64,000 bases of DNA from Confluentibacter flavum (GTDB lineage Bacteria; Bacteroidota; Bacteroidia; Flavobacteriales; Flavobacteriaceae). A model generated the notes under the pieces. It was not told the DNA's origin. It worked only from the letters and a program-made list of their open reading frames with translations, and made no database searches. Location of the stretch: NCBI RefSeq assembly GCF_002843175.1, contig NZ_PJEO01000016.1:124001-188000 (forward strand), written 5' to 3'. Shown here one piece after another: positions 46,900 to 64,000 of the stretch. The translations under genes and the position numbers were made by a program. The number at the start of each line of letters is the position of its first letter. Position 1 is the first letter of the stretch.

Positions 46900-48132
46900 A
46901 TGAACACGCTTATAACCTTAATGTTAGATCAACGAAGAATGAAAAAAGATAGCAAATATCCTATCATTTTTCGACTTACTCATAATAGAAAAACAACCTC
47001 AATTTCTACCGGGTACTCCATCCTTGAAATACATTGGGATGAAAAGAAAAAAGAAGTTAAGACCAGCTATAAGAAAGTTGAATCTGTTCGTTTATTAAAT
47101 ATAATACTTTTAAAGGAAAATGCGCGAATAAATGAGATTATAAATAGACTTCATGATAAAGGAGAATTACAGTATCTTTCTATTAATCAAGTAAAACAGA
47201 AAATAACAAGAAAAGTAAACTACAGTTCATTTACAGAGTATGGGAATCATTTAGTAAAAGAACTAACAGACGTTCGGCGTTTCGGAACTGCCCGTTCATA
47301 TAAATTCACTATAGGAATCATGCAAACCTTTGCCCAAAAGATTGATATAAAATTCAATGAAGTTAATTATGACTTCCTCATGAGATTTGAAAAATTCCAT
47401 TTAACAAAAGAAGACAATAGTATAAATGGTCTAGCATTCTATATGAGAACAATAAGAGCCATTTATAACAAAGGCATTAAAGATGGTTGTATTGATAAAG
47501 AAGCTTATCCATTTTCTGAATACAAAATTAGAGTTGCTCCTACTAAAAAAAGAGCAATAGACATTTCGCATATTAAAAAAATATTGGATTTACAGCTACC
47601 TGTTGAACATGAATTATTCCATGCAAGAAATTATTTTTTAATATCATATATGCTTTATGGTATGCCATTTATGGATATGGCATTTTTAAAAGTAGGGGAT
47701 ATAAAAAACGGTAGGGTTGTTTATCAACGAAAGAAGACCTTAAAAAATTACGATATAAAAATATCAGATCCGCTAAATGAAATTTTAAAATTTTATAAAG
47801 TAGGTAAATCAAAAAAAGATTTTCTGTTCCCAATTATCATGAGAGAAGAACCAAAACAGCAGTATGACGATGTAGGTAGATTAAGAGCCATGTATAATGA
47901 CAAACTAAAAAAAATTGCTCTTCTGTGCAAGATTGACCAAACATTATCTTCTTATGTTTCACGACATAGTTTTGCAACTAATGCCATGCTTCAAGATATT
48001 CCATTACAGGCAATTTCTTCGATGCTTGGTCACAGTAAGCTGAATACAACTCAAATCTATCTTAAAACGCTTCCAAATGAAATTTTGGACAGATACAACG
48101 AAAGATTAAGTCTCAGTTTTTTAAATGACTAG
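46900..48132 (+). CDS. Tyrosine recombinase (integrase)
   Basis: A 410-residue integrase of the Bacteroidota type: arm-binding N-terminus (LDQRRMKKDSKYPIIFRLTH), a SAM-like core-binding domain (about 115-205), and the catalytic domain. Visible catalytic residues are R355-H356 (SRHSFATNAM), H378 (MLGHSKLN) and nucleophile Y387 (TTQIYLKTL). The first arginine, normally in a (R)GMSF block, appears replaced by Tyr in YMLYGMPFMDMAFLK. It should excise and insert the island at the adjacent tRNA fragment. It is the first gene inside the element. Confidence 0.93.
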   Translation: MNTLITLMLDQRRMKKDSKYPIIFRLTHNRKTTSISTGYSILEIHWDEKKKEVKTSYKKVESVRLLNIILLKENARINEIINRLHDKGELQYLSINQVKQKITRKVNYSSFTEYGNHLVKELTDVRRFGTARSYKFTIGIMQTFAQKIDIKFNEVNYDFLMRFEKFHLTKEDNSINGLAFYMRTIRAIYNKGIKDGCIDKEAYPFSEYKIRVAPTKKRAIDISHIKKILDLQLPVEHELFHARNYFLISYMLYGMPFMDMAFLKVGDIKNGRVVYQRKKTLKNYDIKISDPLNEILKFYKVGKSKKDFLFPIIMREEPKQQYDDVGRLRAMYNDKLKKIALLCKIDQTLSSYVSRHSFATNAMLQDIPLQAISSMLGHSKLNTTQIYLKTLPNEILDRYNERLSLSFLND

Positions 48133-51395: not shown

Positions 51396-51614
51396 ATGAA
51401 CGAGTTGTCAGAATTTGTAAAAACCCGTAGAAAAGACGTCAATCTTACTCAAGAAGAGTTTGCAGAGCGTGCTGGCGTTGCATTAACAGTGGTTAGAAAA
51501 ATAGAACAAGGTAAAACCAATCTAAACATGGACAAGGTAAATCTTGTATTAAGCATGTTTGGACATGAGCTTGCGCCCGTAGATTCAAAAGTGCTTAAAA
51601 ATCATTTAAAATGA
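51396..51614 (+). CDS. hipB: HipB-type antitoxin, XRE helix-turn-helix
   Basis: A 72-residue DNA-binding protein (FVKTRRKDVNLTQEEFAERA; VALTVVRKIEQGKTNLN) of the HipB kind. It is the first of three overlapping genes (its stop overlaps the next start by 4 bases). It should repress the operon through the upstream palindromes. In the known HipBST system the second gene, not HipB, is the main antitoxin. Confidence 0.88.
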   Translation: MNELSEFVKTRRKDVNLTQEEFAERAGVALTVVRKIEQGKTNLNMDKVNLVLSMFGHELAPVDSKVLKNHLK

Positions 51615-51946
51615 GAAAAGCATCCATATATTACAACGAAATAGTTGCAGGTATTCTCACAGAAACTGATGATGGTGATTACCTGTTTGAATACACTAAC
51701 AATTACATTAAAAATTATAGCAGTCAATTTATAACCTTTTCAATGCCAGTTAGAACAGAGCGTTACAAAAGCAATCGTTTATTTCCGTTTTTTGAAGGTT
51801 TAATTCCCGAAGGTTGGCTCTTAAGCATTGCCACTAAAAATTGGAAATTAAACCCTAACGATCGTATGGGTTTATTACTTGCTTGTTGCCAAAACTGCAT
51901 AGGAGCCGTTAGTGTACAACCAATAATAGAAGACAATGAAGCATAA
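51611..51946 (+). CDS. hipS: HipS-type antitoxin, HipA N-terminal subdomain
   Basis: 111 residues matching only the N-terminal subdomain of HipA (MRKASIYYNEIVAGILTETD; LTPxxF-type region FFEGLIPEGWLL; NDRMGLLLACCQNCIGAVSV). In the HipBST system this part is a separate protein that neutralises the kinase. Its stop overlaps the hipT start by 11 bases. The overlaps and intact frames show a designed split, not a broken hipA. Confidence 0.85.
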   Translation: MRKASIYYNEIVAGILTETDDGDYLFEYTNNYIKNYSSQFITFSMPVRTERYKSNRLFPFFEGLIPEGWLLSIATKNWKLNPNDRMGLLLACCQNCIGAVSVQPIIEDNEA

Positions 51947-52874
51947 TTGTTTATACTGCTACAAACCACTTGACCATGAAACAGACTTTCATAAAGCATG
52001 TAGCTTGTCTTTTTTTGGAACAGAAACACCCCCTAAACTAGAATATTCATTAGACCAAATGTCCGAACTCGCAAAGGACGTTATTGAACGCAGTGTCGCT
52101 GTTCCAGGCGTACAGCCGAAATTATCTCTGTCAATAGTAAATGATATGACCCAAAATACCAACTTTCGATTAACAGTTGTTGGAGCTTTAGGCGGAAATT
52201 TCATTTTTAAACCCCCATCAAAAGACTATCCCGATATGCCTCAAAATGAACATGTAACCATGCGTATTGCAGAAGCCTTTGGTATACAGACAGTCAAGTC
52301 TAGTTTAATTCGTTTGCAGTCTGGAGAGTTATCTTATATTACAAAACGCATTGATAGAACAGATGATAATGAAAAGATTCATATGCTTGATATGTTTCAA
52401 ATTACCGAAGCATTTGACAAATACAAAAGCTCCATGGAGAAAATTGGGAAAGCTTTAGGCTTGTATTCAAGTAATACAGTATTGGATAAAATTTTCTTTT
52501 TTGAATTAGCAGTATTTAGTTTCCTAACTGGCAATAATGATATGCATCTTAAAAACTTCTCGATGATACAGTCTAATTCTGGCTGGTTATTATCCCCTGC
52601 CTATGACTTGCTGAATGTAACCATAGTAAACCCTGATGATAAAGAAGAAATGGCGTTGACTATTGAAGGTAAAAAAAGCAAGCTTACACGTTCTAATTTT
52701 GAAGCTCTAGGTCAAAGCTTAAATTTGACCAATAAACAAATCGCTGGTGTTTTTAATCGTTTTAATAAAAAGAAAAGCATTGTTATAAAATGGATTAAAA
52801 ACTCATTTTTATCAGATGATATGAAGGTCAGGTATATTGAGTTAGTATTACAGCGTTATACAAAAATCGAATAA
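51936..52874 (+). CDS. hipT: HipT-type kinase toxin
   Basis: A 312-residue Ser/Thr kinase of the HipA fold lacking the N-terminal subdomain. It opens with a cysteine cluster (C5, C8, C22) and has the glycine-rich loop VPGVQPKLS (56-64), ATP-binding K92 (FIFKPP), catalytic D202 with N207 (TGNNDMHLKNFS) and metal-binding D224 (SPAYDLLN). Known HipT phosphorylates tryptophanyl-tRNA synthetase; the target here is unknown. The Ser-rich autophosphorylation motif before the loop is not evident (RSVAVPG here), which may change its regulation. Confidence 0.88.
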   Translation: MKHNCLYCYKPLDHETDFHKACSLSFFGTETPPKLEYSLDQMSELAKDVIERSVAVPGVQPKLSLSIVNDMTQNTNFRLTVVGALGGNFIFKPPSKDYPDMPQNEHVTMRIAEAFGIQTVKSSLIRLQSGELSYITKRIDRTDDNEKIHMLDMFQITEAFDKYKSSMEKIGKALGLYSSNTVLDKIFFFELAVFSFLTGNNDMHLKNFSMIQSNSGWLLSPAYDLLNVTIVNPDDKEEMALTIEGKKSKLTRSNFEALGQSLNLTNKQIAGVFNRFNKKKSIVIKWIKNSFLSDDMKVRYIELVLQRYTKIE

Positions 52875-53662: not shown

Positions 53663-55849
53663 TTATAATGAGTTTACTTCAGTATTAATAGTTGATAATT
53701 CTCTTTTATCAAATGGTCTTTCTAATTTGACCCAAAAAGCCTTATTCCGCTTTATAGAATTAAATTCTTCTTTGATAAATAGATCTTTAATTGTACCATC
53801 AGAATTTTTAATTGAACCAATGAAGTCTTTTAGGAGTATAATTTTTTGATTTGAAGTATCATTAATTAGATTTAAAAAATCTCCTGTCTTAGTTTCTCCA
53901 AAAGAAGAGGTTGGTGCATCAAATATCATTGGATAGGTTTCATCCCTAACTTCGTTAGCAAGTTCTGAAATTGCCAGCAAAATAGAAATATTCATCGAAG
54001 TTCGGACAGCCGTACCTGGAACAAAGTATCTGCCGCCTGACTCTAAAAGTGAAACTTCAATTTTTATTCTATCGCCACCAATTTTCTTTTTTGAAAATTT
54101 AATCTGTCCTGTAAATGCTTCAACATTAATTTGATTTAAATATTTATTTGATTTACTCTCTAGCTTGTCAATAAATTCTTCAAATTTCTTTTCTTTAGTT
54201 TGGATAAATATTGTTTCAATATGTCGCATGAGATCTCTTGTTTTTAACAAGAATGAACTGGCAGAATTTAGATCAATCTTATCTTTTTCATCTTGTTTTA
54301 ACTTGATTTGGCTTTGAATATCTTGAAACTTTGTATTCAGTTTATAATAGTCTTCATTAATAGACTTCAAGTCTTCTTGCCAAAAGGTATAATTCTTAAA
54401 TACATTTAACAATTCAGATTCATTAGCGATTGTTGAATTACCTAATATTCGATTTCTATCCTCCTTTTCTTTTTCTAAAAGTTCCTCAAGTTCCCTCTTT
54501 TCTTTTTCTCGTTCATTAATCAACTCAAATTTGTCTTTAATGTCAGATTTAATTGATCTTAGGTTTTTAAGATTGTCTTCATGACTAACGCTCAAATTCT
54601 CAAGCCTATTGGTATAATCAAACTTAAATAATGGCTCATTTTTTTCAGATTCACTTTCTTTAACAACTTGACTTTCCAAATAGGATTTTAGCCTTTCCAT
54701 CATAAAATTATAGGCTTTAATTTCTTCTTCCGAGCCTTTTGCGTGGGCAGGTCTATTACAAACTTTACAAATTTTCTCTTTGAGCATTTCCTCCATATGC
54801 GATTTTGATGGTACACCAATTGGAAGAGGAACGGCATTATTTAATAATTCTGCCTTGGCTTTCCTCTCTCCTTCTTTAAAGCCTAAATGTTTGTCATATT
54901 CAGATTGTAACTCTCTATGCATTATACTGTGGGAAGACACTTTATCCGCAAATTTTTTATGGAAAGGTTCGAAATTCACTAAAATCCAATTTTCATCAAA
55001 AAGTGATGTAGTGAAATTGTAGTCAATTATTCTATCTGATAATGAAATTTTATTTTCAATATTTTCTATTCTTGTATTTATTGTTTGAAGTATTTGGGCA
55101 TTATTAGCATACTTTTCGGCTTCTTTAATATTTTTTTCTAATTTGTTTTTTTCTTCTTCAGTACTATTAAGATGAATCTTTAATCTGTCTCTTTCTCTAT
55201 GGAGTTGCATTATTTCTCCTTCTAATAAATCATAAGCTCTTTGATTTTGTTGATTTTGCCTTGTCGATTGCTCAACAGCTTTTTCAGCCTTATCTCTTAA
55301 GAATAAACCTTTTTCAGTATATTTTTCATAGTGTCTAGCATCTGAAAAGAGGTTTATTAAATTGGCTAAAGCTTCGTCATTGTCAAAAATATTAAGTTTA
55401 GTTTCACCTTTGAACATTGAATACTTCCGAATTTGAAATGGAAAAACTCTATCAAGTAAATTTTGTGCGTTTTTCGGTATTCTTTCTCCTGTATTTTTAT
55501 CTTTTTCTTCACCCTCGAAAACAACAACTGAAGTTTCAACATCATTATTCAATTTTTTTTTAACTGTAAAACTTCTTGTAATCTTAGATTCAGTATCATA
55601 TTGTTCAACAATCATTGAGACGCTTACCTTAAAGCTATCACCTGAACTTATTTCATTAAGTTTTTTAGCTGATATTAAATTGATTACATCAATAAAATTA
55701 CCATTAAATAACCATTCAACCGCTTCAAAAAACTTAGTTTTCCCTTCATTATTTTCACCTAAAATAATGTTTAGGCCATCCTCAAACGGGAATGAATTTA
55801 CACTATGGTAACAAAGATAATTCTCTATTTGTATCTTTTTAATAATCAT
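53663..55849 (-). CDS. Rad50/DndD-like SMC-type ATPase
   Basis: A 728-residue ATPase with head domains at both ends and a coiled-coil middle. Walker A is GENNEGKTK (31-39), the zinc hook is CKVC at 361-364 between the two coil arms (about 190-350 and 375-560), and the C-terminal half has the signature region (LLESGGRYFVPGTAVRTSM) and Walker B YPMIFDAPTSSFGE near 645. This is the architecture of Rad50, SbcC and DndD. DndD-type proteins work in DNA phosphorothioation, while SspH-like roles belong to restriction; I cannot separate these. The start overlaps the 76-residue gene by 4 bases. Confidence 0.87.
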   Translation of the reverse strand: MIIKKIQIENYLCYHSVNSFPFEDGLNIILGENNEGKTKFFEAVEWLFNGNFIDVINLISAKKLNEISSGDSFKVSVSMIVEQYDTESKITRSFTVKKKLNNDVETSVVVFEGEEKDKNTGERIPKNAQNLLDRVFPFQIRKYSMFKGETKLNIFDNDEALANLINLFSDARHYEKYTEKGLFLRDKAEKAVEQSTRQNQQNQRAYDLLEGEIMQLHRERDRLKIHLNSTEEEKNKLEKNIKEAEKYANNAQILQTINTRIENIENKISLSDRIIDYNFTTSLFDENWILVNFEPFHKKFADKVSSHSIMHRELQSEYDKHLGFKEGERKAKAELLNNAVPLPIGVPSKSHMEEMLKEKICKVCNRPAHAKGSEEEIKAYNFMMERLKSYLESQVVKESESEKNEPLFKFDYTNRLENLSVSHEDNLKNLRSIKSDIKDKFELINEREKEKRELEELLEKEKEDRNRILGNSTIANESELLNVFKNYTFWQEDLKSINEDYYKLNTKFQDIQSQIKLKQDEKDKIDLNSASSFLLKTRDLMRHIETIFIQTKEKKFEEFIDKLESKSNKYLNQINVEAFTGQIKFSKKKIGGDRIKIEVSLLESGGRYFVPGTAVRTSMNISILLAISELANEVRDETYPMIFDAPTSSFGETKTGDFLNLINDTSNQKIILLKDFIGSIKNSDGTIKDLFIKEEFNSIKRNKAFWVKLERPFDKRELSTINTEVNSL

Positions 55850-56086: not shown

Positions 56087-58294
56087 TTATAAATCGTTTA
56101 GGTTCAAATTATAGTAGTCCAAAATATTTTTAAGCGTTTCGTAAGTATCGGTTTTATTCATTGCTAAATTAGCAAAGTCGACTACTCGTTCAAGTTCTTT
56201 CCCTACTAAACCTCTTTCCATTTCAAACGTATTTTCTTCACCCCCGACTTCGGGAACTACTACTAAATCGTGAATAGTCGCATGAATTTTATCTTTGTGC
56301 AATCGCAAAACCCTACCTCTTCTTTGGATAAATTGCCTTGGATTTCCAGTACTAGCACAAAATATGGCTAGTTCGGAACGAGGTACGTCAACACCTTCAT
56401 CCAAACATTTCATTGAGGTCAAAACGTGAATTTTTCCATCTTCATAGTTCTTTAAGATATCCTCCCGGTTTTCTGAATTAGCTGTAAATTGTTTCACCAT
56501 CACGGAATCATCTGTATTGCTAACCGCTTTTGTGTATTCATTTATCAATCTATTTTCATCATCCGTTTCAACACTAAAATCTGTTTCGTCAAAATTTGCT
56601 TCTATGCCCTCAGGAACATATATCAATGTATATTTCAGATTCTTGCGTTTATCAAATTCACTTCTTAGAATCGCTTTGAATGCTTCTAATTTATTGGCTG
56701 CTTTGTGAATGATTCGTTTTCTTTCTAGGAGTTTCTTTTCAATTTCAGGAGTACTTCTGAAATTGCCAGTTTCTTTATCAAATAAGCCCATTCGTAACAG
56801 TTGGAGAGAAAGTTCCTTGTATTTTTCCATCTCTTGGTCTGTTAGCTTTACAATGTGAGGATGATAGGTGTATTTACACAACCAACCAATATTCAACGCT
56901 TCTTCCATTGAATACGAAACAATATAAGGCGGCTCATCATTGAAAAACTCTTGAATGGCTTGATTACCTGCCTCATCAAATTTTCTGTGTGGCGTTGCAG
57001 ATAATCCAATTCGTTTTTCAAGTTGGATATTTGGCAACAATCTTAAATGTCCTTGCGAACCTAAGTTGTGCGTTTCATCAGCAATTAAAATAGTGTCTTT
57101 AGGAAGTTGCGTAAAGTAGCTTTGAAACTTAGGTCTTGGTAATGAAGCATAAGTAACAATGACGATATACGAAGTGTCAATCAGTTTTGAAGCGGTATTG
57201 AAAAACGCAAGATTCTTATCCCAATTCTCTTTTGAACTGACCGTAATAATGTTTTTAAAATTGAATTTGGCACATTCATTTTTCCATTGTTCAACCAACG
57301 CTGTTGTTGGTACTGTAATAATCGCTCTATAAATTCCTGTTTTTTTGTATTCGTTCAGCAGGCAGTTGAGGGAAGTAATCGTTTTACCTGTTCCTGTTGC
57401 CATTGCAAACATTCCCTTGTAATTATTGGCTACCCAACTGTTGTAAGCATTAATCTGATATTCTCTTGGGCCTTCTGAATATGGGAATTTTGGAGTTCGT
57501 CTAATAATCTCAATTTCACTAAAAAGCTTGGTAATTGTTTTTTTGAGCTTGGGGTTTGAAATCAAACTCTGCTTTTTCCTTAGTAGTTGTTCTTCCTGCA
57601 CTAACAATTCATTGATATCCTTTTTACCAAATCTGTCTTTTAGTACAACTTCAATGTCACTAACGGAGATATATTCAACATCTTCATCTTTTTCAGTAAA
57701 ATAGTCGTCAATTAATTTAAGTTGCTTTCTGATAAGCTTATTTGACCTGCCATTTTCCCAACTCAAAAAAGCTTCAAGTTGTTCTATGTTTTCAGAAAGT
57801 CCATAATAGGTAAAATTGCAAGATGCTTGATAGCCGACAGCATCTTGACCATCACTAAAAACCCCTGATTTATAATGTGCTATTCCCTTTCCGTTTTTGG
57901 GCTTGACAACTTTTATCTCAATTCTCTTTTCAGAAATGAGATAAGCCAAACATTCAAAAAAGTGTGTGTCATATTCATCAAGAACTCTACCTAGCGAAAC
58001 AATATCGGTTAAATCAAACACTCTTATTTCATTGGGATTTTCTTCTACTCGGGAAATTGCTTCTTTATCCTTTGCCGAAAGCAAATGATTGATAACCATT
58101 TTCATTTTGCCACCTTTGCTGATAAAAGTTGCGAAACCAACAGAAAGCAGATTGATAGCGGAAGAACTGAAATAACCCAACAACAAACTAAACTCATTGC
58201 TATTGGCTAATCCGTCCAAATAGAATTGCAAGGGTTCGTTTTCTGAACCAGTTTTGTAATCTCTATCTAATGACCAATCGCAATCTTTAAGCAT
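56087..58294 (-). CDS. PLD-nuclease/DEAD-box helicase fusion
   Basis: A 735-residue protein. Residues 1-190 form a phospholipase-D-like nuclease domain with one HxK motif (AHYKSGVFSDGQD, about 137-149). The rest is a superfamily 2 helicase: Walker A ATGTGKT near 300, DETH near 405 (ILIADETHNLGS), GLSATPHR, and motif VI RQFIQRRGRVLRLH. A Dnd/Ssp restriction component or a type III-like helicase has this form. It overlaps the cysteine desulfurase gene by 8 bases. Activity of the single-HKD nuclease would need a dimer. Confidence 0.9.
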   Translation of the reverse strand: MLKDCDWSLDRDYKTGSENEPLQFYLDGLANSNEFSLLLGYFSSSAINLLSVGFATFISKGGKMKMVINHLLSAKDKEAISRVEENPNEIRVFDLTDIVSLGRVLDEYDTHFFECLAYLISEKRIEIKVVKPKNGKGIAHYKSGVFSDGQDAVGYQASCNFTYYGLSENIEQLEAFLSWENGRSNKLIRKQLKLIDDYFTEKDEDVEYISVSDIEVVLKDRFGKKDINELLVQEEQLLRKKQSLISNPKLKKTITKLFSEIEIIRRTPKFPYSEGPREYQINAYNSWVANNYKGMFAMATGTGKTITSLNCLLNEYKKTGIYRAIITVPTTALVEQWKNECAKFNFKNIITVSSKENWDKNLAFFNTASKLIDTSYIVIVTYASLPRPKFQSYFTQLPKDTILIADETHNLGSQGHLRLLPNIQLEKRIGLSATPHRKFDEAGNQAIQEFFNDEPPYIVSYSMEEALNIGWLCKYTYHPHIVKLTDQEMEKYKELSLQLLRMGLFDKETGNFRSTPEIEKKLLERKRIIHKAANKLEAFKAILRSEFDKRKNLKYTLIYVPEGIEANFDETDFSVETDDENRLINEYTKAVSNTDDSVMVKQFTANSENREDILKNYEDGKIHVLTSMKCLDEGVDVPRSELAIFCASTGNPRQFIQRRGRVLRLHKDKIHATIHDLVVVPEVGGEENTFEMERGLVGKELERVVDFANLAMNKTDTYETLKNILDYYNLNLNDL

Positions 58295-59429
58295 AATTAA
58301 AATTTGGTTGTGTAAGTTCTTTTATTTTTTGAATCACAGTTTCGACATCTTCTATTGTGTTGAATTTACCTAGTGAAAATCGTAATGATGCAAAAGCATC
58401 ATCATCACTTAATCCCATAGCTTTCAAAACGTGTGAGGGCTCAACAACTGCTGATGAACAAGCAGAGCCATTGGAGATTGCAATATTTTTCATTCTGCCA
58501 ATCAAAACATTGGCATCCTGTCCTTTGAAACAAATGTTGGCCGTGTTGTAAATTCTATTTTGTGAAACACTATTTAGAGAAGTGTTAGGTAGCTTTAGTA
58601 ATTCTGCTTCCAAACGATCTCTCAATTCAGAAATAGTATTTTGATTCTGTGTCATTTCTTGATTGGCTAATTCACAAGCTTTTGACAAAGCAATAATTCC
58701 AGGAACATTTAATGTTCCACTTCTTAAACCTTGTTCGTGACCACCTCCGTGAATTTGTGAGGTGAGTTTTGTTTTATTTCTTACATACAAGGCTCCGATT
58801 CCTTTTGGAGCATACATTTTATGGCCACTAAAGCAAAGTAAATCAATGCCTAAATCATTAACATCAATCTCTAATTTACCGACCGCTTGTGTGGCATCTG
58901 TCATAAATAAAGCCCCCATGTCGTGAGCTATGGTTGCAATTTCTTTAATGGGTTGAATTACTCCAGTTTCGTTATTGACATACATTACAGAAACTAAAAT
59001 AGTATCGGGTCGGATGGCTTTTTGAAGTTCTGCTAAATCAATCAAACCACTTTGTAAAACTGACAAAAAAGTAACTTCAAAACCTTTTCGTTTTAAGTCT
59101 TTGCAAGTGTCTAAAACCGCTTTGTGTTCAGTTGAAACCGTGATGATGTGTTTTCCTTTATTAGAATAGCTTTCTGCAACTCCTTTAATGGCAATATTGC
59201 TAGCTTCGGTTGCTCCACTTGTAAAAATAAGTTCATTTGAATCTGCATTGATAAAATCAGCTATTTGTTCACGAGCTTGTTTTACTTTTTCATTAATGCT
59301 TTGACCAAAATGGTGGGTGCTGCTTGGATTGGCGAAGTTGTCTTGTAAAAAAGGCAACATTGCATCAAGCACCCTTGGGTCGATGGGGGTGGTGGAGTTG
59401 TTGTCGAGAAATTTAACTTTAGAGTTCAA
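58287..59429 (-). CDS. Cysteine desulfurase (DndA/SspA-like)
   Basis: PLP enzyme that takes sulfur from cysteine as a persulfide. The 380-residue product has the PLP lysine K204 (FSGHKMYAPKG) and the sulfur-carrying C324 (NGSACSSAVVEPSHV). By sequence it could be a general IscS/NifS. Its place inside this operon, overlapping the helicase gene by 8 bases and near a PAPS-reductase-like gene, points to sulfur donation for DNA modification. No IscU, IscA or other cluster gene is adjacent. Confidence 0.92.
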   Translation of the reverse strand: MNSKVKFLDNNSTTPIDPRVLDAMLPFLQDNFANPSSTHHFGQSINEKVKQAREQIADFINADSNELIFTSGATEASNIAIKGVAESYSNKGKHIITVSTEHKAVLDTCKDLKRKGFEVTFLSVLQSGLIDLAELQKAIRPDTILVSVMYVNNETGVIQPIKEIATIAHDMGALFMTDATQAVGKLEIDVNDLGIDLLCFSGHKMYAPKGIGALYVRNKTKLTSQIHGGGHEQGLRSGTLNVPGIIALSKACELANQEMTQNQNTISELRDRLEAELLKLPNTSLNSVSQNRIYNTANICFKGQDANVLIGRMKNIAISNGSACSSAVVEPSHVLKAMGLSDDDAFASLRFSLGKFNTIEDVETVIQKIKELTQPNFNYA

Positions 59430-59440
59430 GGCTTCAATTA

Positions 59441-60376
59441 TTAACTAGCTATTAAATCATTCCATTTATAAATTCTTTGGGCTTCTATTAATCTATTTGT
59501 CCTTTTTATTTTTTCTAATAGAGTTTCAGATTGATTATTTGACTCAATCTGAAAAACTGAATAATATTGTTTTATGATTTCAAACAATTCTTTGCATTTG
59601 GTTTTATTAACTTCAAAATATTCAAAATAAGATTGAATGTTTTGAAGCTCTAGCTTTTGAAGTTTATTTATCAAGTCTTTTAGTTTGAAGGCAATCTCCT
59701 TTTTAGACTTTATAAAAGCACCATTCACTTTTTCATTATGAAATTTTACTAAGCGTTCTTTGAGCAAGGCAACTTCAATAGCATATTGGGAATAAAGTTC
59801 GCTTAAAACTCTGTTCAGTTGACTTTTATTAAAATCATCATCTAACCAGTAAATTAGAATTAAAAAATCTACGGTATCTTTTATTTGACCTATTTGTTGA
59901 AACTCAAAATACCCTGAAAAAAAATCTTTAGCTGGATAATCGTCGGTATAGAAAAAAACTTTTTTCTCATCAAGCCTGCTCAGATATAAGGCATATGCGG
60001 TGGAGCATAATTCACCATTTATTTTCTTGGTGTATCCAACCTGATTTTTAATTTGCTCATAGTACTCATTTCCTAGTTCGCTTATCATTTCTGCACTTCT
60101 ATTCTTTTTACCTCTAAAAAAACTAAGCTTTTGATCAATTTCCTTTCTTATTCCTCCAATCCTACTTGAATCAGAAAACTTGGATAATCCACTTTTTAAT
60201 CTATCATTGACATTTACTTGAATCTCCTTAAAAACAAGTTCATCAATAAGAATTTCAATAGGTTTTGACTTCTTTAATTCTAATGATTTAATCTTTTTTA
60301 ATAAGAAATCGTCTTCATCAATATGAATGAGATTAATCACAGTACAGGCATCCAATAAACAACATACATTTCCCAT
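59441..60376 (-). CDS. PIN-like domain protein in the phosphorothioation-like operon
   Basis: 311 residues. The N-terminus CLLDACTVINLIHI (D9) is the first PIN-fold motif, E122 (INGELCSTAYALYLSRL) fits the middle acid, and D145 or D146 (VFFYTDDYPAKDFF) the third. This suggests a metal-dependent RNase or DNase of residues 1-165, with a coiled helical extension to 311. It lies between the ATPase and the cysteine desulfurase with gaps of 4 and 11 bases. PIN proteins are not described components of Dnd or Ssp that I know, so the role is open. Confidence 0.68.
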   Translation of the reverse strand: MGNVCCLLDACTVINLIHIDEDDFLLKKIKSLELKKSKPIEILIDELVFKEIQVNVNDRLKSGLSKFSDSSRIGGIRKEIDQKLSFFRGKKNRSAEMISELGNEYYEQIKNQVGYTKKINGELCSTAYALYLSRLDEKKVFFYTDDYPAKDFFSGYFEFQQIGQIKDTVDFLILIYWLDDDFNKSQLNRVLSELYSQYAIEVALLKERLVKFHNEKVNGAFIKSKKEIAFKLKDLINKLQKLELQNIQSYFEYFEVNKTKCKELFEIIKQYYSVFQIESNNQSETLLEKIKRTNRLIEAQRIYKWNDLIAS

Positions 60377-60380
60377 AACA

Positions 60381-61493
60381 TTAACCTTTATCCCAAATTA
60401 TATCATCCTTATATTCTTCATAAACTTCCATATTTATAGGGCATTTATTGTCCATATCTGAAAGCTCAATTAATAAAGATAATGATTCGTTAAAGCGTCT
60501 TAATGAAACACTACCTAGCTCTATAATTAAACTATTAATTACACTTTCTTCAAATGGAAAATAAGGGTTTTGATCATTACCTTCTCTAAAGATTGCTATC
60601 AACTCTCTCAAATATTCCTTAAATATATCAGGATTTGGAAAATCAAAGCTGATTCTTTCTTTTATCCTTGATTTAACGCTTTCATAAACGTATTGTCCTA
60701 AATCTTCCACAGAAATTAATGCTGATTGAGTAAGATTCAAAAACAGTAGCAAATTGTTGGGTACGGTATCTAAAATCTCTCTGATGAAATTATTAGTCTT
60801 GTCAATGTTCGAATTGTTTAATACTGCAATGTCTTCAAACTCATCAATCCAAAGAATTACACACGAAAACTTTTGTTTGTTATAGGTTAAACACGAAAAC
60901 AATCCCGCTAAAATTGAACTGTAATCGGTATCGTCTTTTAATGAACGTAATATACCAGATGCATTTAGTGATTTCAGCTCAGTGGCATTCATATTCCCGT
61001 ACAAATACTTTTTAATGTCTAAGTGCTGTATGTCAGAATTAAAAACAGCCTTCAAAACACTTTGGATATGAAGGTTTGAGCCGATTGAATCAATATAAGC
61101 ATTCAAATCACCAACAATATCAGAAAAAGTGTTTCTTAACTCTTCAATGTTAAGTTTGTCAATTATAGAAATGTAAATGCTGTAAATAGGTTCTTTACCT
61201 TTGGGTAATGATATAACCGCTGAATAAGGAATAGCCTTTCCAGCTTTATCTGCAAGTGCTTGTAAAACATCTTTCTTGTTGAAAAATCTTGCAGCGTGTG
61301 TTTTACCACTTCCATATTCCCCCCAATTTAAAACCAAAGTAGAATTAGGTATTCTAATACTACGTTCAATTCTTTTTTCAAATTTCTCTTTTACATCTTT
61401 GAACCCTGCCCAAACTAATTCGTCAGGGTTTGTTGCAGGTGTTAAACGAAATGGATTCGTTTTTAACTTGTATGTTGCTTTGAAGTCTGCCAT
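60381..61493 (-). CDS. P-loop ATPase of the phosphorothioation-like operon
   Basis: A 370-residue AAA-type ATPase: Walker A GEYGSGKTH (58-66) and Walker B CVILWIDEFEDI (209-220), with a helical C-terminal part (FPFEESVINSLIIELGSVSLRRFNE in two pieces). It resembles ORC/Cdc6-like and DUF2791-type ATPases in defence islands, and SspC is also a P-loop ATPase. It starts 6 bases after the 551-residue gene's stop and ends 4 bases before the PIN gene. Partner or DNA target not known. Confidence 0.8.
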   Translation of the reverse strand: MADFKATYKLKTNPFRLTPATNPDELVWAGFKDVKEKFEKRIERSIRIPNSTLVLNWGEYGSGKTHAARFFNKKDVLQALADKAGKAIPYSAVISLPKGKEPIYSIYISIIDKLNIEELRNTFSDIVGDLNAYIDSIGSNLHIQSVLKAVFNSDIQHLDIKKYLYGNMNATELKSLNASGILRSLKDDTDYSSILAGLFSCLTYNKQKFSCVILWIDEFEDIAVLNNSNIDKTNNFIREILDTVPNNLLLFLNLTQSALISVEDLGQYVYESVKSRIKERISFDFPNPDIFKEYLRELIAIFREGNDQNPYFPFEESVINSLIIELGSVSLRRFNESLSLLIELSDMDNKCPINMEVYEEYKDDIIWDKG

Positions 61494-61499
61494 TATTTA

Positions 61500-63155
61500 T
61501 TATTTTATTTGGATGTAGCCGTCTTGATACTGTTCTTGATATTTGAATATGAATTTATCTTGTTCTTTCTCAGACAACTTATTTAGTATAAAGCTATAAC
61601 CCACTTTTATTTTATCGTCCATATAAAGTTTATATTTGGTGTAGTTAGCTGCCTGTGAGGCTGTAACCCTATTTGGGGCGAGCGTTTTAAAAATTTCAAA
61701 ACTATTTTCAATGTGCTTATAAATTCGGTCCAATATTGACTTTATATCGTCCGGATTAGAAACAATATTGTTGTTAAAACAGTCATCAAAAAGATGAATC
61801 ATAAAATTGTCAAGAAATTTAGATGGTGATATTATTTTTTCAGTATTAATATCATTCCATATACATAAATGCTTAAATAAGTTATCGCCTATTTTTTCTA
61901 TATTATATTCATTTTTTGAATTATCAAAACTGATAATTCCAAAATCCAACATCCAATTTAACCTAGGCATAATTAAATGTTCCAAATACACTTCCGCTTT
62001 TTCCCATTTTCTAATTCTGTTTAAGATAATGTCAAGCTTACTCACTACCTTTCTATCTGAGTTATATGTTGGGCTTTTATATCCCTGAAAAGAGTATTGA
62101 TTTTGTTTTTTATATTCTTCCAAACTTTTAATTAACTTGGATTGAAACTCACTAACTATTTTTGAGTAGGTTGCTTTTCCTTCAATATAAATTAACTCCA
62201 ACAGATTGCTGAAATAGAAATAATCATATCTTAAAATACACTCTAAAAAATACATTTTGTCAAATGTGGTTAATTCAAAAATATTTGAAGATTTACTATA
62301 GTCATTTTTTAATGCTTGATATACTTTCAAAGATTTACCAACATAGAGTATGTTATTTATTTTGTTTAACAATTCAATGTCAATTGCCATTTCTAGGTAT
62401 GGCTTAGCTGAAATCCCATTTTTAGTTTCTTTAATTAACCCTTTGTTAAATTCACTATTATCTAAAACATCCTTATATTTTAAACAGAAAGTTTCAAATC
62501 TCTTATTGATATTACTAGTAGGAATCTGCTTATTTTCATCAAGGAAAAGGGATAAAATTTTGAAATAACCTAAGCGTCTAACTTTTGTATTTGTAGATAA
62601 AATTGGTAAAGACTTGTCATCTTTTATCGGCTGATTCTTGCGAAAAAAGATTGTATAAAATTCAGGGACGACAATTGAATCAATTTTTATTTTCACAATA
62701 TGTTTTGCAAATTCAACATCCCACCAGAACTTTTCAGAAATTTCTATTGAAAACATATAATTTCCTGCATCTGGACACATTGCATCACCATACTTTATAT
62801 CTGTATAATGGTTTTGAATAGCATTTTTTCCATATAAGTTGATTTGCTTAATTAATGAATACATTTCGTTGGTGATAGACTTACCTTCTGTCAAGTCTTC
62901 TCTCCATCCTAGGTATTCATAACCTTTAATTTCAAATGACGTAAATTCACTTATCTCGTCTAAAAGACGTTCGATTTTTGAAGTATCATCTAAAGTATTG
63001 TAGGAATAAAAGTCTTCATCAATTTCTTCTTCAAAATCATCTTTTATATCAAACGTAAAAGTATAATGATATTCACTAAACTCAAATATCAATTCGTTTT
63101 CGTGTATCATTGCTTGGTAGCAATTGTTTAAATATAAATTAAATACCTCTTTCAT
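61500..63155 (-). CDS. Large uncharacterised protein of the phosphorothioation-like operon
   Basis: 551 residues from the ATG at 63153-63155, one base after the upstream stop codon (a longer start at 63197 would run 41 bases into that gene and is less likely). No known motif was seen. It is Tyr-, Asn- and Lys-rich, mostly helical in the second half (e.g. SEFQSKLIKSLEEYKKQNQ), has no signal peptide, and begins with an acidic beta-rich part (IDEDFYSYNTLDD). It may be a large-subunit or DNA-specificity protein, but this is only a guess from place and size. Confidence 0.78.
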   Translation of the reverse strand: MKEVFNLYLNNCYQAMIHENELIFEFSEYHYTFTFDIKDDFEEEIDEDFYSYNTLDDTSKIERLLDEISEFTSFEIKGYEYLGWREDLTEGKSITNEMYSLIKQINLYGKNAIQNHYTDIKYGDAMCPDAGNYMFSIEISEKFWWDVEFAKHIVKIKIDSIVVPEFYTIFFRKNQPIKDDKSLPILSTNTKVRRLGYFKILSLFLDENKQIPTSNINKRFETFCLKYKDVLDNSEFNKGLIKETKNGISAKPYLEMAIDIELLNKINNILYVGKSLKVYQALKNDYSKSSNIFELTTFDKMYFLECILRYDYFYFSNLLELIYIEGKATYSKIVSEFQSKLIKSLEEYKKQNQYSFQGYKSPTYNSDRKVVSKLDIILNRIRKWEKAEVYLEHLIMPRLNWMLDFGIISFDNSKNEYNIEKIGDNLFKHLCIWNDINTEKIISPSKFLDNFMIHLFDDCFNNNIVSNPDDIKSILDRIYKHIENSFEIFKTLAPNRVTASQAANYTKYKLYMDDKIKVGYSFILNKLSEKEQDKFIFKYQEQYQDGYIQIK

Positions 63156-63156
63156 T

Positions 63157-64000
63157 TTATACAAAACAAGCCGCACAACCTTCTCCTTCGACATCATCCA
63201 AGATGTCCACTAGGTAAGGTGATTTGGCTTTTGATTTTTTTTCCATTCTTTTAATATACTCTTCTTTGATTTTCTCCATTCTTTCTGGTTGAATCAATTC
63301 TTCCAAGCTTTCAAATTGTCCCCAAGTGTAGCCGTCTTTCTCGTACTCCATAGCTTTCTTGTACAAATCAGGGTGTTGTTCGTACAACCAAACCCATTCA
63401 ATTTTTTGTTGAAAAAAGCAAAAGAAACATCCCGAACGACTTCTTGCGTATTCTCCTTTTTTTCCGTTAACCTCAAATTCAATTTTGTTGTAGTAGGCAG
63501 GAACACCTACACCGCTTTCTTCTAATATTTTAAAAATATCGTCTCGCACTAATACTTCATCATTTTCTAAAAGTGGAAATGTAGCTTCGGTTGCTAGAGG
63601 ATAATCCGTTGTTTTCAGAAAATCAAAAACCAAATGATTAAATGCTTTCACATTGGCATCCAATAAAATATTTAGCTTTTGGTCTAGTGTGAAACTTGTA
63701 TCCACTTTTCGATTAATTGTTTGAAAAGCTTTTTCTTGATTTTTGCCAAAGTCTATATTCTTGGACATTGCTAAAAGTTGCTCCATGTTTTGGTTGGCTA
63801 ACAATTTGGCAACAACATCTTGGCTCCAAATATTCTTGCGAAATGGAAATATGGATTGAATATTCTTTTTTGTAGAAATATAGCCTTCTCTTTCTTCATC
63901 ACCTCGAATTCCAACATAAGAAATCACCGGGTCAGAACCAACATAGTTTTCAAAAGGGTCTAGTTTCAGTTTTTTAGTGCACCAACGAGCATTGGAAGAA
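63157..64000 (-). CDS. PAPS-reductase family protein (DndC/SspD-like), 5' end outside the window
   Basis: The frame is open to the right edge, giving the last 280 residues. It reads ARWCTKKLKLDP and then VISYVGIRGDEEREGY, the conserved block of the ATP-pyrophosphatase/PAPS-reductase fold used by DndC and SspD. Cysteines sit in RWCT, SGCFFCFFQQ and the terminal GCAACFV, a likely iron-sulfur or sulfur-handling set. The N-terminal SGGKDS loop must lie beyond 64000. DndC-type enzymes activate the DNA backbone for sulfur insertion. The GTG at 63925-63927 is internal. Confidence 0.87.
   Translation of the reverse strand, partial: SSNARWCTKKLKLDPFENYVGSDPVISYVGIRGDEEREGYISTKKNIQSIFPFRKNIWSQDVVAKLLANQNMEQLLAMSKNIDFGKNQEKAFQTINRKVDTSFTLDQKLNILLDANVKAFNHLVFDFLKTTDYPLATEATFPLLENDEVLVRDDIFKILEESGVGVPAYYNKIEFEVNGKKGEYARSRSGCFFCFFQQKIEWVWLYEQHPDLYKKAMEYEKDGYTWGQFESLEELIQPERMEKIKEEYIKRMEKKSKAKSPYLVDILDDVEGEGCAACFV

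Follow-up and report, generated by a model that had tools for sequence, protein, structure and literature searches.

Among defence systems built on DNA phosphorothioation, SspABCD-SspE carries its optional effector behind SspD; this effector, SspE, is a DUF262/GmrSD-type protein. The PIN fold, for its part, is best known from RNA-cutting toxins. A second arrangement, SspABCD-SspFGH, is set out by Wang et al. 2021 (PMC8092258) as three genes beside sspBCD, one of them for a Walker-A ATPase; the module is optional, occurs scattered over sspBCD lineages, has an FtsK/SpoIIIE-like end on its third protein, and is reported to be toxic to cells without the sulfur mark. The same paper counts 2,211 of 2,678 sspBCD loci without sspE and sspFGH and suggests further restriction partners. 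At Dnd loci, Rakesh et al. 2024 (PMC10853773) place PIN and HEPN endoRNases at the borders, flanking ABC-ATPase-DndE loci, and propose the PIN as a suicide effector.

The gene analysed here encodes a predicted PIN-like nuclease and belongs to a cassette of three genes, X, an AAA+ ATPase and PIN (X-AAA-PIN), a putative new effector cassette in a modification system already known. As in SspABCD-SspE, an optional candidate effector stands behind SspD, and as in SspABCD-SspFGH it is a scattered three-gene module beside sspBCD with one Walker-A ATPase. In contrast to SspFGH, however, the cassette proteins show no FtsK domain, and profiles of X, the ATPase and PIN did not match the SspF/SspG/SspH-like proteins of L088 or the SspG/SspH-like proteins of L087 (positive control 1.7e-18), loci whose labels come from gene order and an FtsK annotation, not from comparison with strain FF-93. 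Among the scanned proteins of the window operon there was no DUF262/GmrSD match. Whereas the Dnd-border PINs flank their loci, the cassette PIN is enclosed in an Ssp operon, accompanied there by X and by an ATPase of its own. The original prediction knew of no Dnd or Ssp system containing a PIN; this overlooked the Dnd borders, but a search of open-licence papers for PIN paired with phosphorothioation/Ssp or with BrxD found no PIN described inside an Ssp operon.

In the window, by which we mean the whole stretch of 64,000 nucleotides analysed, the gene is a single minus-strand reading frame of 311 codons in an interval whose plus strand is stop-rich, and it is separated by 4 bases from the ATPase gene and by 11 bases from the SspA gene (Table 1). 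The minus-strand series reads SspB (293 aa), SspC (1073), SspD (367), X (565), AAA+ ATPase (370), PIN-like protein (311), SspA (380), PbeA (735), ABC ATPase (728) and a small protein (172), the genes upstream of the window end being supplied by L002, a longer stretch around the same locus. PADLOC matched SspB (3e-124), SspC (E=0), SspD (1.8e-93), SspA and, over its whole length, PbeA (PDLC02706), the values for the last two standing in Table 1. Because PADLOC names these five proteins, the locus holds all of an Ssp system together with a restriction part of Pbe type, and is not a Dnd operon; the DNA-sulfur operon first proposed is accordingly an Ssp one. Since SspB, SspC, SspD and SspA are all present, modification needs none of the extra genes. 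SspB has a full DUF4007 domain, and a replacement of SspB by the PIN protein was ruled out by the full SspB, SspC and SspD upstream. The counterpart of the ABC ATPase in L009 matched PbeC at 5.9e-30.

Table 1. Positions in the window of the predicted PIN-like nuclease gene, its acidic codons and protein segments, and the neighbouring genes
Feature	Position	Strand	Remarks
PIN-like nuclease gene (predicted)	59441..60376	-	311 codons/aa; third gene of X-AAA-PIN cassette; invariant acids, DUF3368 profile match
D9 codon	60350..60352	-	first acid of the predicted PIN site, closing the first strand; invariant 5/5; aligns to DUF3368 D
E51 codon	60224..60226	-	predicted second PIN acid, not in the original prediction; invariant 5/5; aligns to conserved DUF3368 E
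E122 codon	60011..60013	-	invariant NGE motif; aligns to DUF3368 GE
D145 + D146 codons	59939..59944	-	TDD motif; aligns to DUF3368 DD
Residues 57-117, ~60-residue insert	60026..60208	-	variable, mostly helical, splits PIN core halves
Residues 184-311, helical tail	59444..59827	-	sole well predicted part, pLDDT mostly >70
SspD, PAPS-reductase type	63157..63999	-	cut by window end; complete in L002 10658-11761
X, cassette gene 1	61500..63155	-	start set at conserved MKE, residue 15 of 565-codon frame 61500-63197
BrxD-like AAA+ (ORC/Cdc6-type) ATPase, cassette gene 2	60381..61493	-	370 aa
SspA, cysteine desulfurase	58287..59429	-	SspA 1.6e-168; DndA 2e-167
PbeA: PLD/HKD-type N-terminal part + SF2 helicase	56087..58294	-	PbeA E=0
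ABC ATPase related to PbeC/LmuB, CxxC in coiled coil	53663..55849	-	LmuB 2.5e-15 best, PbeC 3.1e-12
Small protein, 172 aa	53143..53661	-	weak dnd_assoc_4 likeness, under that model's cut-off

Four more copies of X-AAA-PIN were found, giving five in total, all of them in Ssp operons. A pattern scan of genome contigs yielded L003 (Cyclobacterium plantarum) and L004 (Flavobacterium azizsancarii), with PIN proteins ~55-57% and ~46-48% identical to that of the window, respectively; the others are L009 (genome G404) and L039 (G643). The order SspB-SspC-SspD-X-ATPase-PIN is kept in all five, with gaps of 2-7 bases between X and the ATPase and of 3-5 bases between the ATPase and PIN. The gene had been described as fixed between the ATPase and the desulfurase, and on the ATPase side this stands, the ATPase lying 3-5 bases upstream in every locus. 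On the desulfurase side it does not: SspA is the next gene in two of the four loci with a flank (the window and L003; L004 ends at a contig edge), while the SspBCD-X-AAA operon of L009 and L039 closes with the PIN gene, and the SspA-PbeA-ABC-small gene series lies on the other strand, ending against the PIN gene and leaving SspA several kb off. This layout shows that the PIN gene is part of the SspBCD-X-ATPase operon and that a position before the desulfurase is not general. The same gene was thus found beside the PAPS-reductase in five of five copies, and beside the pair of PAPS-reductase and directly following desulfurase in two of four. PbeA and the ABC ATPase are present in all four cassette loci with readable flanks.

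Every copy of known origin comes from Bacteroidota. Among 395 class genomes the ATPase profile hit two, the window's own and G404; in the order to which G404 belongs it hit G404 and G643 out of 64 genomes, and among 296 genomes of the window's own order it hit the window's genome alone. A search with the PIN protein in 296 phylum genomes returned its own copy only, and the PIN profile, in 188 class genomes, returned this copy and that of G404 together with four weak partial matches (E 0.002-0.008). No relatives of the ATPase, X or PIN were found in viral contigs, none of PIN or X on plasmids, which held two distant haloarchaeal ATPases, and none of the ATPase in phages.

The acids D9, E122, D145 and D146, originally assigned to a PIN active site, were found at the positions claimed in the 311-residue protein and are invariant in all five homologues, the window's included; absence of the acidic triad from homologues, named beforehand as evidence against a PIN, was therefore not seen. 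The other four proteins are 36-57% identical to that of the window, and 64 of 311 positions are invariant in the five, including D9, E51, E122, D145 and D146. Twelve of 46 acids are invariant, and the probability that all four named ones fall among these by chance is ~0.003. The acid order of the PIN superfamily (D, E, E/D, D) is present in five of five.

A set of DUF3368 proteins was used as reference (198 phylum genomes, 30 loci, 23 proteins used, 7 dropped for a wrong or short frame). The whole PIN profile matched these 23 proteins at E 0.022, with D9 and E51 on the family's D and E. Residues 1-62 matched at E 0.0029, and none of 200 column shuffles scored as high; residues 112-185 placed NGE on GE, at a score that 2 of 200 shuffles reached. 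When the two parts were joined with the insert removed, the match reached E 0.00075 (0/200 shuffles as high) and followed one path through D-D, E-E, GE-GE and DD-DD, a result that needed removal of the insert and for which DUF3368 was chosen after the likeness had been noticed. Residues 134-183 alone were aligned to DUF3368 in the wrong register (6/100 shuffles as high), and no sensible register emerged when the joined profile was forced into a global alignment. Five VapC-type PINs, from five of six loci (the single PIN_2 locus, L040, was left out), did not match the PIN profile. With the five PIN proteins as queries, the family libraries Pfam, NCBIfam and PHROGs gave no significant PIN (best PIN_2, E 1.1, in one of the five members) and Pfam gave no DUF3368 match; other best family rows, TSP_NTD at 0.0043 and GldG at 0.00022 on the helical tail, were not taken as relatives. 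In the joined alignment the D, E, GE and DD motifs of the cassette PIN fall on those of the DUF3368 PINs, in matching order and register; it differs from these PINs (~150-175 aa in those used) by the ~60-residue insert and a helical tail of ~125 residues.

Structure prediction, proposed as a check against PIN folds, proved uninformative. The AlphaFold model of the PIN protein, built from five sequences, had a mean pLDDT of 61.5, with values <50 over most of residues 1-165. Foldseek/VIA rows for this model covered mostly the helical tail and included no PIN fold, and nothing is excluded by them. A PDB sequence search with the PIN and X profiles gave nothing meaningful. The PIN-like assignment stands on sequence, namely the four acids, invariant in five of five, and the in-register DUF3368 match, and on these features we regard the protein as very probably a PIN.

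Of the two partner proteins, X matched an SspB profile (14 proteins) through its residues 186-565, over the winged-helix wing (E 0.0042; 0/60 shuffles), and because of this match its C-terminal half is probably DNA-binding. Residues 1-185 matched nothing found, the family libraries gave no convincing match to X, and the comparison of X with haloarchaeal winged-helix proteins did not rise above shuffles (7/60 as high). The structure model of X (five sequences; mean pLDDT 53.8) had no confident fold. The ATPase matched the BrxD/BrxC_BrxD models weakly: with PF10923 (cut-off 22.2 bits) the window copy scored 18.6 and that of L004 24.8, the latter alone of the two copies scanned passing the cut-off, and with the NCBIfam BrxD model the score was 19.8 bits against a cut-off of 350. 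In the PDB its profile found ORC4 only, at E 0.07. BrxD is an ORC/Cdc6-type AAA+ ATPase which, according to PMC12839542, may load a partner onto DNA; the resemblance to type 2 BREX ends with this weak match, as PglX, PglZ, PglW or BrxHI were not the best match of any window operon protein. The two distant ATPase relatives on haloarchaeal plasmids are 20-24% identical. On these plasmids (L007 13063-15116 and L008 13063-15116) the BrxD-like ATPase comes after a small protein that, judged by eye, contains winged helices, and after a tRNA-guanine transglycosylase; 7-deazaguanine genes lie nearby in L008, a similar pair of ATPase and putative DNA-binder beside another DNA modification.

Comparison of the window with L003 revealed a mosaic. 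DNA identity is 83% over SspB-SspD, 91.5% from the C-terminal part of X up to where the PIN gene begins and 86.5% over SspA-PbeA; the blastn match does not cover the X N-terminal part or the bulk of the PIN gene. At the protein level PIN (57%), X residues 1-185 (47%) and the ABC ATPase (59%) contrast with the X C-terminal part (97%), the ATPase (92%) and PbeA (94%). The synonymous distance of PIN (1.79) lies far above that of the ATPase (0.36), which argues that these blocks were exchanged rather than merely fast-changing. The pattern is a hint that PIN goes together with the X N-terminal part. Between L009 and L039, however, PIN (78%) and X (75%) stand beside the ATPase and SspB (86%), and the odd gene is SspA, not PIN; the exchange of PIN and the X N-terminal part is therefore the pattern of one pair. 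The ABC ATPase gene at 53663-55849 (-) has been exchanged too, being 59% identical to that of L003 beside a PbeA at 94%, and 24% to that of L009.

The DUF4007 domain was found in 15 of 395 class genomes, from which 14 Ssp loci were examined (12 fetched, the window's own and that of G404; a DUF4007 fragment in G503 was left out). Two carry the cassette, ten do not and two are cut by contig ends (L026, L036), so that it is present in 2 of 12 readable loci. Among the cassette-free loci, L028, L029 and L034 have a helicase, a GHKL ATPase and a PLD-like protein (by family match in L028, by GHKL match and layout in L029, and by layout and protein size alone in L034), L030 and L031 have DndB, L032 a GmrSD/SspE-like protein, L025 PglZ, L027 PglZ from layout and protein size alone, and L035 an SspFGH-like layout, from gene order and first residues resembling L088. 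In L033 (6154-17567) SspBCD is accompanied by PbeA, the ABC ATPase and the small protein, with no X-AAA-PIN; Ssp and Pbe together thus occur alone. On plasmids, too, sets of helicase-GHKL-PLD, of DUF262 plus SIR2 and of genes including FtsK come after SspD or lie facing it; in a Hymenobacter plasmid (L083 13358-15236) one series runs from SspBCD through a DUF262 gene to a SIR2 gene. The helicase, GHKL ATPase and PLD-like set was seen near SspD at L028 4683-9340, L029 7596-12108, L082 14155-18363, L084 13001-17348 and L085 13202-17589, and, recurring in Bacteroidota and Alphaproteobacteria, it is a candidate for another frequent effector module of Ssp.

In an SspC tree of 14 rows (without L027 and L031, with split frames, and L035; L004 on a long branch) the window and L003 group with the cassette-free L028 (97/99). 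A single SspC clade of cassette loci was rejected by the AU test, with L025 left out, at p-AU 0.000326 for four rows and 2.57e-05 for five, with L004. Identities between the window and L004 are 38% for SspC, 59% for X, 70% for the ATPase and 48% for PIN; with L009 they are 55, 34, 51 and 37%, respectively. Probably, then, the cassette was passed from one Ssp lineage to another, repeated loss being the alternative. It resembles a mobile effector module, occupying the place that SspE-like, SspFGH-like or helicase-GHKL-PLD genes take in other Ssp loci.

It is reasonable to infer an effector role for the PIN-like protein. We consider it moderately probable, and favour the reading, that PIN supplies the nuclease of an optional effector cassette of three genes, X, the BrxD-like AAA+ ATPase and PIN, inserted behind sspBCD. 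SspABCD would place sulfur marks on host DNA, and X, with its winged-helix C-terminal half, and the ATPase would inspect DNA and restrain PIN. On unmarked or unusual DNA the ATPase would change state and release PIN, which could then cut nucleic acid via the putative metal-binding acids D9, E51, E122 and D145/D146, and phage would be stopped by cutting of its DNA, or by cutting of RNA with arrest of the cell. The original prediction offered both abortive (RNase) and direct (DNase) action, and the predicted protein sequence does not tell them apart. Our data establish the gene order (5/5), the invariant acids, the DUF3368 match, the winged-helix match of X, the optional presence and the scatter over the SspC tree; the nuclease activity, the three-protein complex, the phosphorothioate gating and the substrate are inferred. 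Against this account counts the presence of PbeA and the ABC ATPase in all four readable flanks, by which a separate nuclease is already there, as do the unreliable fold prediction, the family libraries without a significant PIN match and the confinement of copies of known origin to Bacteroidota. A wider version, which we put forward tentatively as possible, is that X-AAA-PIN may be a new, separately inherited Ssp restriction module: X would read DNA through winged helices, the ATPase would be the switch, and PIN, rather than a PD-(D/E)XK, HNH or GmrSD protein, the phosphorothioate-gated cutter, with the variable PIN and X N-terminal part exchangeable between systems. A conserved cassette that brings along both a predicted nuclease and a putative AAA+ switch is a good, testable candidate for one missing restriction partner of sspBCD, and would bring the PIN fold into the core of DNA-modification defence.

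DUF3368-type PINs act as RNase toxins, and DUF3368 is the closest PIN group that we found, so that PIN could instead be a back-up suicide toxin, a toxin-antitoxin-type RNase that a partner, perhaps the variable X N-terminal part, keeps inactive until a phage disables Ssp or Pbe; it would guard the system and read no marks. DUF3368 is named in a paper on type II toxin families (PMC6929052), the role is that proposed for PINs at Dnd loci by Rakesh et al. 2024 (PMC10853773), and PIN and the X N-terminal part differ between the window and L003 (57% and 47%, beside 97% for the X C-terminal part and 92% for the ATPase) as if swapped together. The gene, however, lies inside the operon with the AAA+ ATPase and X in five of five loci and not at its edge, there is no separate antitoxin gene, and PIN is not unusually variable between L009 and L039 (78%, against 75% for X and 86% for the ATPase and SspB); we thus regard a guard toxin as rather unlikely.

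Ssp modification includes a nicking step, and the PIN gene shares an operon with SspBCD, yet it is highly improbable that PIN nicks DNA for sulfur insertion, adding to or replacing the SspB step, as SspB is present with its full DUF4007 domain and 10 of 12 readable class Ssp loci do without the cassette. The lack of a significant family or structure match would suit a protein that is not a working PIN, either keeping its acids for some other reason or being a structural PIN relative within the Pbe-type restriction complex. This we consider quite unlikely, in view of the profile match, which is in register at each of the four acids, the invariance of the acids at 36-57% identity and L033, whose PbeA-ABC-small gene series with SspBCD lacks the cassette, so that the Pbe part does not need it.

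Elsewhere in the window, three tightly ordered plus-strand genes at 51396-52874 encode 72-aa helix-turn-helix, 111-aa and 312-aa proteins that resemble a split HipA toxin-antitoxin set, presumably of the HipBST type. Outside the defence genes, a 410-aa protein resembling a tyrosine recombinase is encoded at 46900-48132 (+), and upstream of the Ssp operon L002 holds frames resembling methylmalonyl-CoA epimerase and RbfA, labelled by eye; from these three the stretch may be a genomic island.
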